Assembly: GCA_022450665.1 (NCBI GenBank)
Contig: JAKUPQ010000022.1
Location: 1 to 32,701 of the forward strand
Reading direction: 5' to 3'
Length of the DNA stretch: 32,701 nucleotides
Origin: Alphaproteobacteria bacterium
GTDB lineage: Bacteria; Pseudomonadota; Alphaproteobacteria; Rickettsiales; VGDC01
Positions 11,235 through 28,328 of the stretch are shown here, piece after piece (the stretch's first letter is position 1; the number at the start of each line of letters is the position of its first letter). A program made the translations under genes and the position numbers. Below the pieces are notes generated by a model that worked only from the letters and a program-made list of their open reading frames with translations, was not told the DNA's origin and did no database searches.

Positions 11235-12716
11235 CTAAAAATCAATTAGCCAGCTTGGCCGGTTTCCATCTTTATCTAAAACTTCTGGTGCTTCAGTTTG
11301 AATAGCACTTGGATCGAGTGTTTGTATGTTTGTGCCATAAAATTTATGTGGCAACCAAGTGGCGATAGCTGGAGTAGTGGCAATTAAGCCCAGAACAATT
11401 ACCTGAATGGCCACAAAAGGTAAAGCGCCGCGATAAATACTGCCGGTAGCTACTTCTTTTGGGGCTACACCGCGTAAATAAAATAAAGCAAAACCAAAGG
11501 GTGGCGTTAAAAATGATGTTTGCAGGTTAATCGCCATCATAATTGCCAGCCATATAGGATCTGCTCCCATGCCAAGTAAAATAGGGGCAACGATGGGGAC
11601 AACTACAAAAATAATTTCGATAAAATCGAGGAAGAATCCCAGCAAAAACATTACCAGCATAGTTACAAGCATTGCGCCCAGCAATCCACCGGGTAAGCTA
11701 CTTAATATGCCGTGGATAACATCTTCGCCGCCATATCCGCGAAAAACCAGTGTAAATACGGTGGCACCAATTAATATGGTGAATACCATGCAGGTGACTT
11801 TTGTTGTGCATTGAACTATGCCGCGTAAATTCTCGAGTGATAGCGCTTTGCGCTGAAATGCAAGCAACAACGCGCCCACAGCACCCACTGCGGCAGATTC
11901 TGTAGCGGTTGCAAACCCCAGCAATATGCTGCCAAGTACGATGGCAATAAGAAAAAGTGGTGGAAATAATACCTTGCAAACGCACATAAAACCTTTATTG
12001 CCCATAATGCGCGTACGCTCTTCGCTTTTCATTGCAGGAAGTTTTTTTGCACAGAATAATGCATTGAGTATCAGCCATGTTAAATAGCAGCCCACCAGTA
12101 ATGCGCCCGGGAGCAGCGCCGCCACAAATAAATCAGCAATGGTTACGGGGGCAGTGGCGGTAATGCCGTGTCGCATTTGTGTGGTTTGCCATGCACTGGA
12201 AATTTGATCGCCCAGCAAAATGAGCACGATAGAAGGAGGGATAATCTGTCCTAAAGTGCCTGCGGCGCAAATCGTTCCGCTGGAAATTCGGGGGCAATAT
12301 CCAGCCTTTATCATGCTGGGAAGCGATATTAACCCCATGGTTACCACGGTTGCACCAACAATTCCGGTGGATGCGGCAAGCAATGCGCCAACAATTAATA
12401 CCGAAATTCCCAACCCCCCACGCAACGTACCAAACAGTGCAGACATAGTTTCGAGCAGATCTTCGGCAATTTTAGCGCGTTCTAATGTTACGCCCATAAA
12501 TATAAAAAGTGGCACAGCAAGCAAAAGCTCATTGAGCATAATGCCATAAATGCGGTTGGGAAGGGCGTTGAGAAAAGAAATATCAAAAACATCCATTGCC
12601 GAGCCTAAAAAAGCGAACAGCAATGACACACCTGCCAAAACAAAAGCTACGGGATAGCCAAGCAACAATCCTGCAAAAATCACAAAAAGCATGGAATAAA
12701 GCATGATTTCAGTCAT
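11235..12716 (-). CDS. TRAP transporter large permease (DctM-like)
   Basis: A 493-residue membrane protein with about 12 hydrophobic segments, the large subunit of a tripartite ATP-independent periplasmic transporter. Family landmarks are GYPVAFVLAGVSLLFAFLG at the N-terminus, the repeated small-residue stretch GALLAASTGIVGATVVTMG, CAAGTLGQIIPPSIVLIL, FLLGFFLDFIEIIFVVVPI and NLQTSFLTPPFGFALFYLRG. These are standard for DctM. The substrate cannot be read from the sequence. ATG 12716 is preferred because it overlaps the end of dctQ by 8 bases (coupling) and gives the normal N-terminus. The Asp/Pro-rich C-terminal tail (about 40 residues) is longer than usual. Confidence 0.92.
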   Translation of the reverse strand: MTEIMLYSMLFVIFAGLLLGYPVAFVLAGVSLLFAFLGSAMDVFDISFLNALPNRIYGIMLNELLLAVPLFIFMGVTLERAKIAEDLLETMSALFGTLRGGLGISVLIVGALLAASTGIVGATVVTMGLISLPSMIKAGYCPRISSGTICAAGTLGQIIPPSIVLILLGDQISSAWQTTQMRHGITATAPVTIADLFVAALLPGALLVGCYLTWLILNALFCAKKLPAMKSEERTRIMGNKGFMCVCKVLFPPLFLIAIVLGSILLGFATATESAAVGAVGALLLAFQRKALSLENLRGIVQCTTKVTCMVFTILIGATVFTLVFRGYGGEDVIHGILSSLPGGLLGAMLVTMLVMFLLGFFLDFIEIIFVVVPIVAPILLGMGADPIWLAIMMAINLQTSFLTPPFGFALFYLRGVAPKEVATGSIYRGALPFVAIQVIVLGLIATTPAIATWLPHKFYGTNIQTLDPSAIQTEAPEVLDKDGNRPSWLIDF

Positions 12717-13233
12717 GGAGCGCCTTTTGCTGTGTGAGAGTTTTGGCAGATTCAGCAATCACAGCAATGCCTTGCAGCATAAGCAGGGCAGGCCCAATGA
12801 GCAAAAAGCTCTTAAGCAGAAATATTCCTTGTAAACCATTATATTCACTGGAAGCTTCATAGAGTTGCCATGATGAATGCACAAAACCCCACGAATAATA
12901 TATCAGTGCAAAGCAAACAGGAAAAAGCAAAGTAATGGTGCCTATAAGGTCTACAAGTGCTTTTTTACGGTTTGAGAAGCCTGCATAAAATACATCTACG
13001 CGCACTTGCTCGCCCGCTTGCAATGTGTATCCCATTGTGGCCAAAAAGGTAGCGGCATGAATTGCCAGCACTAATTCTATTTGCCATGCTGCGCCCACGT
13101 TAAATGCATAGCGCAATGCGACATTAAGGCACATAAGCAACACGGTAGCTAAGGTTAACCACGCCATCGCGGTGCCAATACGTGCATTTATCACGGCGCA
13201 AATGCGCGCTAATGAGCAGAAAAATTGGTGCAT
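12709..13233 (-). CDS. TRAP transporter small permease (DctQ-like)
   Basis: A 174-residue protein with four transmembrane segments, the small membrane subunit partnering DctM. The N-terminal helix region continues into NVALRYAFNVGAAWQIEL, where the RYxFN...W.xE pattern is the DctQ signature. A second signature is AGEQVRVDVFYAGFS, corresponding to the conserved HVRVDVF motif. The start at 13233 has no obvious ribosome site. A promoter candidate lies just upstream. No gene for the periplasmic substrate-binding subunit (DctP or TAXI type) is next to the pair, although it usually is. Confidence 0.9.
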   Translation of the reverse strand: MHQFFCSLARICAVINARIGTAMAWLTLATVLLMCLNVALRYAFNVGAAWQIELVLAIHAATFLATMGYTLQAGEQVRVDVFYAGFSNRKKALVDLIGTITLLFPVCFALIYYSWGFVHSSWQLYEASSEYNGLQGIFLLKSFLLIGPALLMLQGIAVIAESAKTLTQQKALHD

Positions 13234-19111: not shown

Positions 19112-20269
19112 ATGATGTCATCAGATACCCTCAAACTCGCACAAAAGCTTATACAAGTCGATAGCGTGACACCGGATGACGGTCACGGTATTGCTGTGAT
19201 GCAGGAATATTTAAGTGATGTGGGATTTGAATGCCATGAGCTGGTATTCGAAGATGATGAACATGGTAAAGTACATAATCTTTATGCGCGAATAGGCGAG
19301 GGCAGCCCCAATTTTTGCTTTGGTGGGCATACCGATGTAGTTCCACCAGGAAATATTGCGGCATGGCGGGCAGGCCCATATTCGGCAGAGGTGATTGAAG
19401 GGCGTCTGCATGGTCGTGGCGCTGAGGATATGAAGGGCGCAATTGCCGCTTTCGCCATAGCTGCAAAGCAGTTTATTGAATCGAATAATGGCGTAATGCC
19501 AAAAGGTTCTATCAGCTTTTTACTTACCGGCGATGAAGAAGGGCCAGGGGTAAATGGCACCCCGAAGATGCTCAATTGGCTGCGGGAGCAAGGTGAACCT
19601 CTGGACGTATGCTTGGTGGGAGAGCCAACAAACCCAGAAATATTAGGTGAAATGGTAAAGATTGGCCGCCGTGGCAGCATCATTACAGAGCTTGTAGTAT
19701 TGGGCAAACAAGGGCATGTGGCTTATCCTGCATTGGCAGATAACCCCGTAACAAAAATGGTTGAAGTGCTGCACAGCCTGAAAAACGAAGTGCTGGACGT
19801 AGGAACTGAATTTTTCCCTCCATCTAATTTGGAAGTTACCACCGTAGATGTTGGCAATAGCTCTGTGAATGTAATACCCGAACAGGCTATGGCACGTTTT
19901 AATATCCGTTTTAATGACCTGCATCATTCTGATGATTTGAAAAAGTGGATAGATCTGCTTTGCCATAAAATCTGTGGCAAAGATGGTTATCGTCTCAAAT
20001 TTCGTGTGAGCGGCGAAGCATTTTTAACGCCTCCTGGTGAACTGTCAGCGTTGGTAGTGAACGCCATTAAACGCGTAACTGGCATCGAGCCTGTATTGTC
20101 CACCACGGGTGGCACGTCGGATGCACGGGTGATTAAAGATTATTGTCCGGTAATCGAGTTTGGCACCACTGGACGCACGCCTCATATGGTAAATGAGTAT
20201 GTTTTGGTGGAAGATTTAAATAAATTGACTGAAATCTACAAAAATATCCTATTGGATTATTTTAAATAA
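19112..20269 (+). CDS. dapE: Succinyl-diaminopimelate desuccinylase
   Basis: A 385-residue zinc peptidase M20 family enzyme that removes succinate to give LL-diaminopimelate. Metal-site motifs are FGGHTDVVPPG (zinc-binding His and catalytic Asp), GRGAEDMKGAI (bridging Asp), LTGDEEGPG (catalytic Glu and metal Glu) and GEPTNPE. The dimerisation-domain motif GRRGSI and the C-terminal STTGGTSDARVI and GTTGRTPHMVNE complete the DapE pattern. The start ATG 19112 directly follows the dapD stop and a second ATG stands next to it. There is no separate ribosome site, so translation depends on dapD. Confidence 0.96.
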   Translation: MMSSDTLKLAQKLIQVDSVTPDDGHGIAVMQEYLSDVGFECHELVFEDDEHGKVHNLYARIGEGSPNFCFGGHTDVVPPGNIAAWRAGPYSAEVIEGRLHGRGAEDMKGAIAAFAIAAKQFIESNNGVMPKGSISFLLTGDEEGPGVNGTPKMLNWLREQGEPLDVCLVGEPTNPEILGEMVKIGRRGSIITELVVLGKQGHVAYPALADNPVTKMVEVLHSLKNEVLDVGTEFFPPSNLEVTTVDVGNSSVNVIPEQAMARFNIRFNDLHHSDDLKKWIDLLCHKICGKDGYRLKFRVSGEAFLTPPGELSALVVNAIKRVTGIEPVLSTTGGTSDARVIKDYCPVIEFGTTGRTPHMVNEYVLVEDLNKLTEIYKNILLDYFK

Positions 20270-20288
20270 TCTGCATCCTCACATAAAA

Positions 20289-20318
20289 TTGATATTTATA
20301 TGATGCTCTGCGTATAGG
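20289..20318 (+). promoter_or_regulatory. Candidate promoter for the Asp/Asn/Ser-rich secreted protein
   Basis: TTGATA (20289-20294) matches the -35 in five of six bases. TATAGG (20313-20318), 18 bases on, matches the -10 in four of six. The predicted transcript would have a leader of about 60 bases that contains the hairpin at 20341-20377. Confidence 0.4.
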
Positions 20319-20340
20319 GGGCTGATGCGGGTTTGCATAT

Positions 20341-20377
20341 GTTGGCAGAATATTTAGTTAACATTCATATTGCCAAC
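20341..20377 (+). promoter_or_regulatory. Leader hairpin abutting the ribosome site
   Basis: GTTGGCA (20341-20347) pairs with TGCCAAC (20371-20377). A two-base bulge (GA) and an ATAT/ATAT continuation make an 11-bp stem around a 13-base loop containing GTTAAC. GAGG of the ribosome site begins one base after the stem. It could control translation, protect the mRNA end, or be a DNA operator. Confidence 0.4.
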
Positions 20378-20386
20378 GAGGACACC

Positions 20387-20911
20387 ATGAAAAAGACAAC
20401 AATTTTTATTTCTACAGCAGCATTAATGGCCGGTACGGCTTGTGGTGTATGGGCAGAAAGCAACGAAACCACTTCTGCTTCCTTCGACCGCTCTGAACGC
20501 AGTATATATGACAGCAGCATTCGCACCACCGCAATCAACGATGATGGGGTGCTTTATAGCGCCAATAGTGTAGATGTTAGCGCAGATGCTGATACACATT
20601 CAACAATGCATAGTGGTCTTAATTCAAATAATCGCATTGGTATTGATTCTTCAATTGATACGAACGTAGGCACCGTAGTTGACACCGAAACAAATAGCGA
20701 TAGTGACTATGACACTGAATTTGATGCCGACACCAGTATTAATAGCCAATCGGATGTGGAAATGCGCAATAACGCTGGAAATCGCACTACCACAAACAAC
20801 AATGCTGGAATAGATGCCGAATTGGGCAGCAATATTGGCGGCAGTAAGGTGGGGGTAGATTCTAACATTACCGCAGGTGGTAGTGCTGGCGGCGGCGTGA
20901 TTGGAAACTAG
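20387..20911 (+). CDS. Secreted low-complexity Asp/Asn/Ser/Thr-rich protein, unknown
   Basis: This 174-residue protein belongs to no family I recognise. A clear signal peptide (KKT..., hydrophobic core ISTAALMAGTA) ends at VWA, with cleavage after residue 23. The mature part is acidic and repetitive, alternating Asp, Ser, Asn, Thr and small residues: SVDVSADADTHST, DTETNSDSDYDTEFDADTS, then a Gly-rich end (GGSAGGGVIGN). Patterns such as xDxDxD could bind calcium but no strict EF-hand or RTX motif is seen. The start at 20387 has GAGG about 6 bases upstream; an in-frame start at 20333 would place extra residues before the signal peptide. It has its own promoter candidate and leader hairpin. Confidence 0.72.
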   Translation: MKKTTIFISTAALMAGTACGVWAESNETTSASFDRSERSIYDSSIRTTAINDDGVLYSANSVDVSADADTHSTMHSGLNSNNRIGIDSSIDTNVGTVVDTETNSDSDYDTEFDADTSINSQSDVEMRNNAGNRTTTNNNAGIDAELGSNIGGSKVGVDSNITAGGSAGGGVIGN

Positions 20912-20928
20912 CCATTATTCAACATGCT

Positions 20929-20956
20929 TTGCCTTTATTTAAAATTATGTTAAAAT
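20929..20956 (+). promoter_or_regulatory. Candidate promoter for the His-rich secreted protein
   Basis: TTGCCT (20929-20934) and TAAAAT (20951-20956) are spaced by 16 bases. They overlap an 8-bp inverted repeat, CTTTATTT (20933-20940) with AAATAAAG (20953-20960). The repeat could be an operator or, less likely, a weak terminator for the preceding gene, as no U-tract follows. Confidence 0.35.
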
Positions 20957-21000
20957 AAAGCCATATCTACTTATGTAATTCTATTAAGGATAGGCATGTG

Positions 21001-21489
21001 ATGAAACAATTATTCACCCTTTGTGTTATTGGTAGCTTGGCGTTTTCGGGCGGCAGCGCGTATGCTAATGGGCAGCGTAGTAGCGACCATGATCATGATC
21101 ATGATCATGACGTCCACAGCGGAGCTGATAATGAATCATTAGGCAATAAAACTGCCTATGAGCTAATGATGGGCGGAGTTAGCAATACCCCGAAAGAAGC
21201 GCCGGTGCAAGTTATACACGGTGAAGAAAAACGTGGATACTATACGGGATCGGACATTGATAAGCAACGTGCGGGAATATATGGAAATAAAGCCGCATAT
21301 GAACGTATGATGGGCAGCTACCAGATCAAAGATCATTTCGAGGAAAGTGGTCATGACTCTCATCATGCCGAATCGGAAAATGATGTAGATGTTTTTGATC
21401 GTCATTTAAGTGATGGCGGTGTATTTAAAAGCTCTGGAGCACAGAATTCGCCTACTACCAAGGCAAACTATGGCCATTACGGTCACTAA
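21001..21489 (+). CDS. Secreted His-rich protein with duplicated GNKxAYExMMG motif, unknown
   Basis: This 162-residue protein matches no family I know. A signal peptide (KQLFTLCVIGSLAFSGGS) ends at AYA, cleavage after residue 22. The mature N-terminus has an alternating DHDHDHDHD run (29-37) followed by VH, a candidate metal site. The motif GNKTAYELMMG (48-58) recurs as GNKAAYERMMG (95-105). Further His clusters are HDSHHAE and a C-terminal YGHYGH. It probably resides in the periplasm and may bind Zn, Ni or Cu, which is inference. AAGGA lies upstream; GTG 20998 (spacing 7) competes with ATG 21001 (spacing 10). The stop is directly next to the end of truA on the other strand. Confidence 0.75.
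   Translation: MKQLFTLCVIGSLAFSGGSAYANGQRSSDHDHDHDHDVHSGADNESLGNKTAYELMMGGVSNTPKEAPVQVIHGEEKRGYYTGSDIDKQRAGIYGNKAAYERMMGSYQIKDHFEESGHDSHHAESENDVDVFDRHLSDGGVFKSSGAQNSPTTKANYGHYGH
21085..21111 (+). repeat. Hexanucleotide tandem repeat GATCAT in a coding region
   Basis: Three perfect GATCAT units (21091-21108) are preceded by one degenerate unit GACCAT (21085-21090) and followed by GAC. They encode the DH run. Copy-number change by slippage would add or remove DH pairs without changing frame. Each unit boundary is also self-complementary (ATGATCAT). Confidence 0.85.
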
Positions 21490-22233
21490 TTAATATATAA
21501 CTTTGGTAAGATATAACCCTTCTGCCGGCGCGGTTGGCCCAGCAGCGTGGCGATTTTTAGCGTCACGGGCGGCAGCCAAATCGTTGCGTGTCCATTTGCC
21601 CTTACCCACCAGATATAAGCTTCCCACCATTATACGTACCTGATGGTGTAAAAAAGAGCGCGAGGCAACATGAATGCGGAATTCTTCGTTATCAATTGGC
21701 TCAAAGCGCATTTCATCCAGTGTTTTCATGGCAGAATTCGCCTGACACTCACTATCGCGAAAGCTGGTGAAATCATGGTGCCCTAATAGCTCATGCGTAG
21801 CGTCTATCATTGCGGTTATATTAAGTGGTTCTGAAACCTGCCATGCGCGATATTTATCCAGCGCCAACGGAGCGCGGCGATTGATAATACGGTACATATA
21901 GCGCCGCCCCGTCGCCGAAAATCGGGCATGAAAATCTTCACTCACTACTTCGCCATCCAATATAGAAAGCTGTGTTTCTTTCAGGTAGTAATTCAGAGCT
22001 TCTTTCACACGAAATCCGGAGTATTCTTTATTATGCAAATCAAAATGTATTACCTGCCCACGTGCATGTACGCCTGCATCGGTGCGTCCGGCGCAATGTA
22101 CGGTGGGGTTTTCTCCGCAAAATTGAAATATGGCTTCTTCTAAATATTGTTGGCCGCTTGGCACATCGTTTTGTCGTTGCCAGCCATGCAGCCCCACACC
22201 ATCATATTCCACAATCAGCTTGTAGCGGGTCAT
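21490..22233 (-). CDS. truA: tRNA pseudouridine synthase A
   Basis: A 247-residue TruA that isomerises uridines 38-40 in the anticodon arm of tRNAs. It opens TRYKLIVEYDGVGLHGWQRQ, and the catalytic aspartate is Asp52 in CAGRTDAGVHARGQVIHF. It also has FHARFSATGRRYMYRI and the C-terminal FLHHQVRIMVGSLYLVG, all standard. It begins one base after the fmt stop codon, so def-fmt-truA forms one unit. Its 3' end touches the end of the His-rich secreted-protein gene. Confidence 0.96.
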   Translation of the reverse strand: MTRYKLIVEYDGVGLHGWQRQNDVPSGQQYLEEAIFQFCGENPTVHCAGRTDAGVHARGQVIHFDLHNKEYSGFRVKEALNYYLKETQLSILDGEVVSEDFHARFSATGRRYMYRIINRRAPLALDKYRAWQVSEPLNITAMIDATHELLGHHDFTSFRDSECQANSAMKTLDEMRFEPIDNEEFRIHVASRSFLHHQVRIMVGSLYLVGKGKWTRNDLAAARDAKNRHAAGPTAPAEGLYLTKVIY

Positions 22234-25269: not shown

Positions 25270-27375
25270 GTGGAAGAATTGCAAAATAAATTCCTGTCTA
25301 TTTGGTATGCTGAGCGCCCACGATGGATTTTATGGATACCGGTTTTTATTGGCACGGGCGTAGGAATTTACTTTTCACTGCCTAATGAGCCATCACTTCC
25401 CCCATTGTGGTTGAGTGTTTTTGCCTTCGCATTGTTAGCATATTGGGGATTTTATAACCAAAAAACTCTGTTAGGGAATAGTGCAATATTAGCGATGTGC
25501 ATTGCGCTGGGTTTGTCGGTAGCGGCGCAACGCACCGCCTATATTGCCGCACCAATCATTGAACGGCAATTGTACCCACAAACTATAACCGGTGTGGTTG
25601 CTGAAATCACCACGCGCCCCGAAACCACACGTTTAACGCTAGAAAATGCGGTTATAAAATCGCTTTCTCATGAAGATACACCAAAATATATCACGGTATC
25701 ACTTCGTAGCCATGCGGATAAAGCGATAGAGTTGGGCGATAAGATAGAGTTACGTGCGGGTTTCTTTCCTCCTCCAAAACCAGTTATTGCCGGAGGATTT
25801 GCATTTCATCGCCATTTTTTCTTTAAACAGATAGGTGCAATGGGCTATGCGATTGGATCAGATCAGCCCAAGATTTTGATTAAAGCGCGAGACAGTACTA
25901 GCATAGCGAGCCAAATTCTGCAAAAACGCCACGACATAGCCCAATGGTTGATACAACATATGAGTAAACGAGAAGGCGCGGTGGCAGCGGCACTTATGGT
26001 GGGCGAGTCACGAGCGATTCCACCGGATATATATGAATCTATGCGCCAGTCAGGCTTGGTACATGTGCTATCAATCTCTGGGATGCATTTGACACTGGCA
26101 GCAGGAATATTTTTCTTCTCTGCCCGATTAATTTTTGCTGCTATTCCACAATTTGCGGCACGTTGTGATACAAAAAAATATGCAGCAATCGTGGCGCTGA
26201 TTGGCACATTCATTTATCTGCTGTTGGCAGGAATGCCCATTTCGGCGCAACGCTCCTTTGTGATGGTGGCGCTTGTATTATCAGCTGTCATGATTAGCCG
26301 TACCGTCACGCCCGTGAGATCTTTATGCATGGCGGCTACATTGTTACTTGTTTTTACGCCGGAATCATTACTAAACCCAGGGTTTCAATTGTCTTTTGCC
26401 GCTACTTTGGCAATTTTGGCGTATTATGAGCGATGGATAGAAACGCGTAATAAGTTGTTGCCCGAAGAATGGAACTGGAAACAAAAACAAAAGCAATTCT
26501 GGAACGGAATCGTGGCAACCTCAACGGTGGCAACGTTCGCGACCATGCCGTTTATTCTGCATCACTTTGAAGGATTACCACTTTATTCAGTATTAGCGAA
26601 TTTAGTAGTAATGCCACTGGCATCGTTTTGGATTATGCCCATGGTGGTACTGGTGTTGGTAACGCTACCACTAGGCATAGCAGGATGGTTTTTGCCGGTG
26701 TTGAAATGGGGTATCAGTATGATGCTGGCAATGGCACAGTGGATTGTGACGCTGCCATATGCGATACTTGACACGCCGCCCCTTTCCACGCCATGGCTGG
26801 TGGTAATTACGTTTGGCGGCTTGTGGCTGTGTTTATGGCAAACAAGGTGGCGTTATTTAGGTGTAGTACCTATGCTTGCAGGGCTAATGAGTCTTGGTTT
26901 TTATCATCCGCCGGATATGGTGATTAGTGCGGATGCCAAAAAAATCGCTGTGCGCACCTCACCTGATACCATTACCATGTTACGTGGACAACGGCGCGGA
27001 TTCACACAAGATGGATGGAAGCGTTTTTTGCGTACCGAAAGTTATGAACTGCTTCGCAAGGCTAACAGCAAGCATATTCGCTGCGATGATCGTGGGTGTA
27101 TTTATACATGGAACGGTCAGGAAATTGCATTTTCCTATCATCGCGCCACCTTGCAAGAAGACTGTGCTAAATCAGATATGGTAATCACGCCGTTATGGCC
27201 AGCGTATTACGATACACAGAGTTTTTGTGGCCATACCAAACTTTACGATAAAAGCTGGTTGGCAAAAATGCAGGGTGTGAGTTTTTGGATAACTCCTGAA
27301 AGAATCCACTATAAAAGTGTATTAGAAACATTGGGCAATCGCCCATGGAGTCAGCGCAGCACCACAAGAAATTAA
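25270..27375 (+). CDS. comEC: ComEC/Rec2-family DNA-uptake channel, without lactamase domain
   Basis: A 701-residue polytopic membrane protein. An N-terminal DUF4131-like part holds two to three helices and an OB-like soluble stretch (residues 90-200). The Competence channel domain contains LVHVLSISGMHLTLAAG, LAGMPISAQRSFVMVA and NPGFQLSFAATLAILAY, the ComEC hallmarks. The final 150 residues are soluble and do not show the HxHxDH motif of the lactamase domain. They instead have CDDRGC, EDCAKSDMVI and FCGHTKL, a short C-terminal form seen in Alphaproteobacteria. The start is GTG at 25270 with only a distant AGGA. The 3' end overlaps the TraB/GumN gene by 4 bases. It transports single-stranded DNA in natural transformation, if competence exists. 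Confidence 0.9.
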   Translation: MEELQNKFLSIWYAERPRWILWIPVFIGTGVGIYFSLPNEPSLPPLWLSVFAFALLAYWGFYNQKTLLGNSAILAMCIALGLSVAAQRTAYIAAPIIERQLYPQTITGVVAEITTRPETTRLTLENAVIKSLSHEDTPKYITVSLRSHADKAIELGDKIELRAGFFPPPKPVIAGGFAFHRHFFFKQIGAMGYAIGSDQPKILIKARDSTSIASQILQKRHDIAQWLIQHMSKREGAVAAALMVGESRAIPPDIYESMRQSGLVHVLSISGMHLTLAAGIFFFSARLIFAAIPQFAARCDTKKYAAIVALIGTFIYLLLAGMPISAQRSFVMVALVLSAVMISRTVTPVRSLCMAATLLLVFTPESLLNPGFQLSFAATLAILAYYERWIETRNKLLPEEWNWKQKQKQFWNGIVATSTVATFATMPFILHHFEGLPLYSVLANLVVMPLASFWIMPMVVLVLVTLPLGIAGWFLPVLKWGISMMLAMAQWIVTLPYAILDTPPLSTPWLVVITFGGLWLCLWQTRWRYLGVVPMLAGLMSLGFYHPPDMVISADAKKIAVRTSPDTITMLRGQRRGFTQDGWKRFLRTESYELLRKANSKHIRCDDRGCIYTWNGQEIAFSYHRATLQEDCAKSDMVITPLWPAYYDTQSFCGHTKLYDKSWLAKMQGVSFWITPERIHYKSVLETLGNRPWSQRSTTRN

Positions 27376-28328
27376 TGTATAGTAGTGACGCGCCAACCGC
27401 TTTTTTCTATTTCGGATAATATGCCGGTTTCGCCCATTAGATGTAACGCCCCAATGGCAGTCAGGCTACTGCCTTCATTTAAGTAAGATTGCAGACGATT
27501 TGCCATTATGCGATTGCGTTCAAAAATCAGCTTTTCTTCCATGTAGCGTCGCAATTCCAAGCCTGTCATCATGTCAAAAGATGCATCTGCAAATTTATGC
27601 ATGGCTTTAAGATCACGATCTACATAATTTTGCATAAACAATGCGTTAGCTTCATCAATGCCATCTACCTCGCCAAGTGTGTCGATAAGCATTTGAAGTT
27701 GTTTGTCTTCGGGAATACTGGCAAAAATCTCAAATTGCTCGGCAGGACTTTCAATACTAAATAATATCTTACCCATTGATTGCGCGGCATTCTGTAAGCG
27801 CTTATCTAAAGTAACACCGTCGGCTACAGGGGGTGGGTATTGTAATGTTATTGCCGCTGCCCAAGGGCGCATACGATTTGTACCAATCTGTGGAATATCA
27901 AGCCTTTCTTTCAACTCTTTTGATAGCAGTGCAAATTGCTCTGTACTCAGCATGTCAGACAATCCTTTAGATTGAGTAACTGGAGTAAACATGTATTGCG
28001 CAGCCACCAGCGCGGTATTCGCATCTTCTACGAATTCAAAACCCACATGGCTGGTTTTTTTAATCAGGGTCAGCGCATCTTCATAAATGGGTTGTAACGT
28101 GGGGGAATCGGAATGGAGTGTACCCATGATATAATTATCCGGATGGCCACATTTTTCGAGTTTAAAAAACAATCCAACTTCGTAGCGTTGAGCGATCGGG
28201 ACATAGGCTTCCTGTTGAGCCGTACATGTTTCTGCTTTGGCTGAAAGCACGGTTGGTTCTGCCATGCCTGCGGTAGGATATAGCAATGCATGAATAAAAC
28301 ATGTGGCAATAATAGCGAGGTTTTTCAT
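27372..28328 (-). CDS. TraB/GumN-family protein, secreted
   Basis: A 318-residue protein with an N-terminal signal peptide ([20 protein letters not shown], cleavage after AGMA near residue 23). The TraB/GumN pattern is visible: [11 protein letters not shown] with its conserved histidine, [39 protein letters not shown] and the closing [12 protein letters not shown] with a second histidine. The fold resembles the Tiki/EreA group of possible metal-dependent hydrolases, but function is not established. Its ATG overlaps the trpC stop by 4 bases (ATGA), so it is translated together with the trp genes. That coupling is unusual. Confidence 0.87.

Follow-up and report, generated by a model that had tools for sequence, protein, structure and literature searches.

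The open reading frame (ORF) at positions 21001..21489 (+) of the window encodes a His-rich protein of 162 amino acids that carries the 11-residue motif GNKxAYExMMG twice. Here the window means the whole stretch of 32,701 nucleotides that was analysed, which is the entire contig C22 of a 2.48-Mb Rickettsiales genome in 154 contigs. The two copies of the motif resemble each other beyond chance and are likely under constraint. Judged from its sequence, the protein looks like a lineage-restricted orphan, and the motif looks private to this one orphan gene and not the sign of a repeat family.

Copy 1 of the motif, GNKTAYELMMG, occupies residues 48-58 (21142..21174, + strand), and copy 2, GNKAAYERMMG, occupies residues 95-105 (21283..21315, + strand). 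They start 47 residues, that is 141 nt, apart and form the longest direct repeat listed in 20270-21500; 9 of their 11 residues and 26 of their 33 bases are identical. A match of 9/11 was reached in none of 20,000 shuffles of the mature protein (best 8, twice) and in none of 20,000 shuffles of residues 40-162 (best 8, three times). The BLOSUM62 local score of the repeat was equalled by 16 of 1,500 shuffles of the whole mature protein, because the DHDHDH run of the protein inflates the scores of the shuffles. When this run was left out, the score was equalled by 0 of 1,500 shuffles. The boundary of the motif is sharp; when compared at the offset of the repeat, just one of the remaining 36 residues in the 47-residue unit is identical. 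These results bear out the duplication described in the original prediction, at the exact coordinates given above.

It had also been claimed that the DNA of the two copies has diverged more than the protein, which would suggest selection. By raw identity this is barely the case (79% for the DNA and 82% for the protein), and that part of the claim hardly stands. The part that stands concerns the kind of change, that is, 5 of the 7 differences are synonymous. Counted by the Nei-Gojobori method, 5 synonymous differences fall on 6.5 sites and 2 non-synonymous differences on 26.5 sites, and the bias gives a one-sided p value of 0.0016 in Fisher's test when the sites are taken as independent.

Neutral duplication was simulated in two ways. 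For a 47-codon duplication (42,000 runs over seven distances), we counted the runs with at least 9/11 identity in one window of the unit and at most 3/36 outside it, and this contrast between motif and flanks was reproduced in 1 of the 42,000 runs. For a 33-nt duplication (nine distances, 20,000 runs each), the joint probability of 9/11 or better identity together with five or more synonymous changes was 0.00085 or lower at every distance. When at least 9/11 identity is given, the chance of at least 5 synonymous changes is 0.05-0.33 at distances of 0.4-0.7, where 9/11 itself is rare. Thus, the synonymous-biased change and the neutral simulations together make selection on the motif likely, as had been supposed. 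The constraint is likely and not proven, because the sample consists of 11 codons chosen for their similarity, a choice that favours the result.

The ORF begins with ATG at 21001, and an alternative GTG start is present at 20998. Read by eye, a Shine-Dalgarno-like AAGGA (20986-20990) lies upstream, and the N-terminus MKQLFTLCVIGSLAFSGGSAYA (residues 1-22; 21001..21066, + strand) resembles a Sec signal peptide, cleavage being expected after AYA. Of the 140 residues of the mature chain, 13 are His, 24 are acidic and 4 are Met, and there is no Cys. On the + strand, the His/Asp run HDHDHDHDVH corresponds to residues 30-39 (21088..21117), a second His patch, HFEESGHDSHH, to residues 112-122 (21334..21366), and the C-terminal YGHYGH to residues 157-162 (21469..21486). 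The His content of the ORF (8.0%) is the highest among the 28 ORFs of the window that were compared, the next being 6.2%. All four Met residues of the mature chain (residues 56, 57, 103 and 104) are found as Met-Met pairs within the motif copies.

The values of GC (0.446), GC3 (0.377) and local codon adaptation (0.706) of the ORF are within the range of the same 28 ORFs. From this native codon usage and GC, the ORF is probably a resident gene, and its horizontal acquisition was rejected on the same composition. A weak promoter-like sequence, TTGCCT-16-TAAAAT with TG before the second hexamer, is located at 20929..20956 (+), within the 86-bp intergenic gap that precedes the GTG codon; the region 20200-21600 contains 8 promoter-like sites against a mean of 4.4 in shuffles, so that the count lends this site weak support. 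By eye, an AT-rich inverted repeat, CTTTATTT ... AAATAAAG, is also seen at 20933-20960 of the window, overlapping the promoter-like site upstream of the His-rich gene. It is absent from the repeat listing, of which the minimum length is 12 bases.

The original prediction proposed that the motif might define a small new repeat family. Within the sensitivity of our searches this was not upheld, and no second protein with the motif was obtained by protein, profile or pattern searches. Searched as a DNA pattern, NKxAYExMM was present in 1 of 343 genomes of the order, which is the genome of the window itself with its two copies. In that genome, KxxYExMM and the full motif with up to three base mismatches gave no match beyond the two copies. 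The exact motif gave 0 matches in the viral contigs. A degenerate pattern (roughly G[NDSG][KR]x[AS]Y[EQ]xMMG), which recovers both copies in the window as a control, gave 0 matches in a contig set of 84,980 species and 0 in the viral contigs; this contig set may omit records near the genome of the window, and the pattern scans demand exact residues at most positions. The two-copy pattern, in which two YExMM are separated by 37-47 residues, was found in 1 of a sample of 372 genomes of the class, again the genome of the window. Its sole match in the viral contigs (L067) was rejected as a two-copy protein, since the start of the single ORF listed for that locus falls inside the first "copy". The motif strings were not found in the literature searched.

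A profile scan for other carriers gave the same answer. A profile built from the two copies was run over the 343 genomes of the order. The own copies alone were clear, at E about 1e-13, while matches at E 0.02 or worse came from 51 others of these genomes. These E values are per genome, so that nominally one match or so at E up to 1 would be expected in each genome, although many are dropped at the first screening. The 19 loci outside the own genome that were examined from these matches are all partial. Among them, GIYGNKNAY recurs in the genus g53, in short open frames that mostly have 31 codons and sometimes 26 or 40, GNKTAY occurs in a 756-residue frame of the genome G148 (L074) and in L086, and KATYEAMM occurs in L078, in a frame resembling a methionine aminopeptidase. 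These, together with DRMMGS in L085 and AIYEHIMG in L087, were taken as chance similarities.

The whole protein gave a similar picture. Against 55 relatives at E 0.01, the full 162-residue sequence matched only itself. Against the 343 genomes of the order it matched itself and, weakly, five others (E 0.067-0.39), and residues 40-162 searched against a sample of 385 genomes of the class matched the own copy and, weakly, 26 others (E 0.011-0.47). In six-frame scans, 16 loci of these weak matches (5 from the order and 11 from the class) lacked the motif and were rejected as relatives. The nearest look-alike among the weak matches is SLGNKSIYPKM in an 808-residue frame of the genome G195 (L020, E 0.067), and a laxer one is KGCFDEMI in L031. 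Scans confirmed by tblastn found no relatives in the contigs of 84,980 species or in the viral contigs, and none was found at E up to 1 in plasmids or phages. One further genome of the same family, G001, was examined. It is 89% complete and also gave no match; its silence says little, because dapE and truA, searched at thresholds of E 1e-40 and E 1e-20, respectively, are unmatched there as well.

The motif had been thought to resemble no known domain, and this agrees with our results, in which no credible match was obtained in Pfam, NCBIfam, PHROGs or the PDB sequences. In Pfam-A at E up to 5, the 162-residue protein gave one meaningless match (LTI65_LTI78_N, E 4.4). In NCBIfam at E up to 5, it gave one match, to an aminodeoxychorismate synthase model, at E 0.063 and 12.4 bits against a cut-off of 275. 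No match was found in PHROGs, or among the PDB chains at E up to 5. Single-sequence AlphaFold2 models had a mean pLDDT of 50.6 for the whole protein and 53.4 for the mature chain, with pTM values of 0.13 and 0.14, respectively. Helices were modelled at residues 53-56 and 86-104 in the whole protein and, in full-length numbering, at 52-56 and 86-104 in the mature chain, which include part of both motif copies. The models are compatible with a disordered chain that has a helix tendency at the motifs, and with no more than that; the helices are weak evidence because the confidence of the models is very low.

The gene lies between dapE (19112-20269, + strand) and truA (21490-22233, - strand), both of which were assigned to Pfam families, the gene names being our reading. 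Another gene is placed between dapE and the His-rich gene (20387-20911, + strand). Its product has a signal peptide-like start and a low-complexity body rich in Asp, Asn, Ser and Thr; it could not be placed credibly in any family of Pfam, NCBIfam or PHROGs, and a search of 71 genomes gave the protein itself and four weak matches (E 0.018-0.093). The surroundings are ordinary chromosomal DNA that carries dapD, fmt, def, gltX-type, trp and ileS-type genes, as we read their families. Among the 24 proteins of the contig scanned against Pfam, no metal transporter, metal regulator or ABC transporter was found, the immediate neighbours being dapE and truA, and the sole transporter family was DctM (TRAP; 11238-12758). 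No Rfam family reached its gathering score in the window. Elsewhere in the window, at 27372-28328 (-), a TraB/PrgY/GumN family protein is encoded between a Competence-family gene (ComEC/Rec2-type by our reading) and a cluster for trp biosynthesis.

We compared the same locus in other genomes. The 3' side of dapE was covered in 17 other genomes, over 1,500 bases in 14 of them and over 819, 462 and 98 bases in L008, L009 and L011. It contained no His-rich ORF, and the highest His share was 4.4%. On both sides of truA, none was seen in 22 of the 23 other matching genomes, as judged from the first 70 residues of each ORF; L065 was left out of this comparison, and truA was misplaced in L050. A conserved locus for the His-rich gene was therefore rejected, there being no counterpart beside dapE or truA in the other genomes examined. 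Two further observations were made at these loci. In the genome G012, 3' of dapE (L018, locus positions 115-666, + in contig orientation), the run HHHDHKH is present in an ORF that resembles an ABC-transporter ATPase, and this locus is alone among 81 loci from other sources in having an HxHxHxH-type run. In the genome G016, beside truA (L043, 1-428 and 455-1315, - strand), two adjacent genes have near-identical type IV pilin-like N-termini.

Taken together, we tentatively propose, as a possibility that falls short of being probable, that the gene encodes a lineage-restricted, mostly unstructured protein that is exported, chelates metal and carries a short helical motif twice. That is, the N-terminus suggests that the protein would be exported by the Sec pathway, and its His/Asp runs may chelate a divalent metal either in the periplasm or extracellularly, Zn, Ni and Cu(II) being the most plausible candidates. 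Both copies of GNKxAYExMMG would be short segments of a flexible chain that form helix and are retained by selection, and the pair may act as a bivalent docking or self-association element. ZnuA is a known periplasmic zinc-binding protein with a His-rich segment. ZrgA of Vibrio cholerae is likewise described as a periplasmic zinc-binding protein with a His-rich segment (PMC9820375). The present protein resembles these two in its predicted export and in having a stretch rich in His, which could provide additional metal sites, but it differs from them in having neither a family match nor a confident fold, and the 24 contig proteins scanned include no ABC transporter. To our knowledge, GNKxAYExMMG is not a feature of proteins of the ZrgA/ZnuA type.

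Alternatively, the gene may encode a fast-evolving exported protein that has no metal role, in which case the His/Asp runs would be filler of low complexity and the motif would be a segment for binding another protein or a surface. We consider this reading a real possibility below even chances. The product of 20387-20911 is likewise signal peptide-like at its start, of low complexity and without a clear relative, so that the locus may hold two fast-evolving exported proteins, and metal genes were not seen among the 24 proteins of the contig that were scanned. Against this, HDHDHDHDVH with two further His clusters is unusual, and the His share stands above that of every other ORF compared. The general class of taxonomically restricted orphan genes with short internal repeats is similar in being short, apparently exported and of low complexity, with an internal duplication and no detected homologue, but the 11-residue motif here is sharply bounded. 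The original prediction that Met and His together could form a copper or other soft-metal site appears highly unlikely from the sequence. The confinement of the mature chain's Met residues to pairs in the motif copies would suit such a site. However, there are four Met only and no Cys, no copper family was matched in Pfam or NCBIfam, and the residues that the motif conserves besides Met, namely G, N, K, A, Y and E, are not known as soft-metal ligands. Met-rich copper proteins have clustered Met ligands in densely spaced MxM or MxxM runs. The present protein, which is apparently exported, resembles the Met-rich and His-rich periplasmic copper proteins in combining Met with His, but it has two Met-Met pairs only, and no MxM or MxxM clusters were found in the mature product.

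It is also conceivable, and we think unlikely, that a small dispersed family exists of which the other members are too diverged or belong to unsequenced relatives. The incompleteness of G001, the strictness of the pattern scans, the possible omission of the own or very near genomes from the contig set, and the partial look-alikes in L020, L074 and L087 would all allow this. In contrast, the own copies alone were clear in the two-row profile scan, the other matches that were examined were partial, and the degenerate pattern was absent from both contig collections. A spurious ORF or a chance resemblance seems very improbable to us. A clear homologue is missing from all searches, as would be expected of such an ORF, but the signal peptide-like start, the Shine-Dalgarno-like site, the native codon usage, the repeat beyond the shuffles and the synonymous-biased change speak against it.

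Returning to the exported metal-chelating protein, we speculate, with little expectation of being right, that GNKxAYExMMG might be the first-seen example of a short, bivalent helix motif by which a disordered metal buffer, once exported, is anchored to a partner; more examples of the motif would be present in unsequenced close relatives. The present case illustrates that a visible repeat within a protein need not signify a family. The His-rich protein adds one more lineage-restricted, apparently exported case and matters little beyond its own genome. If close relatives appear, the contrast between the motif and its surroundings would mark the motif as an obvious target for mutation.
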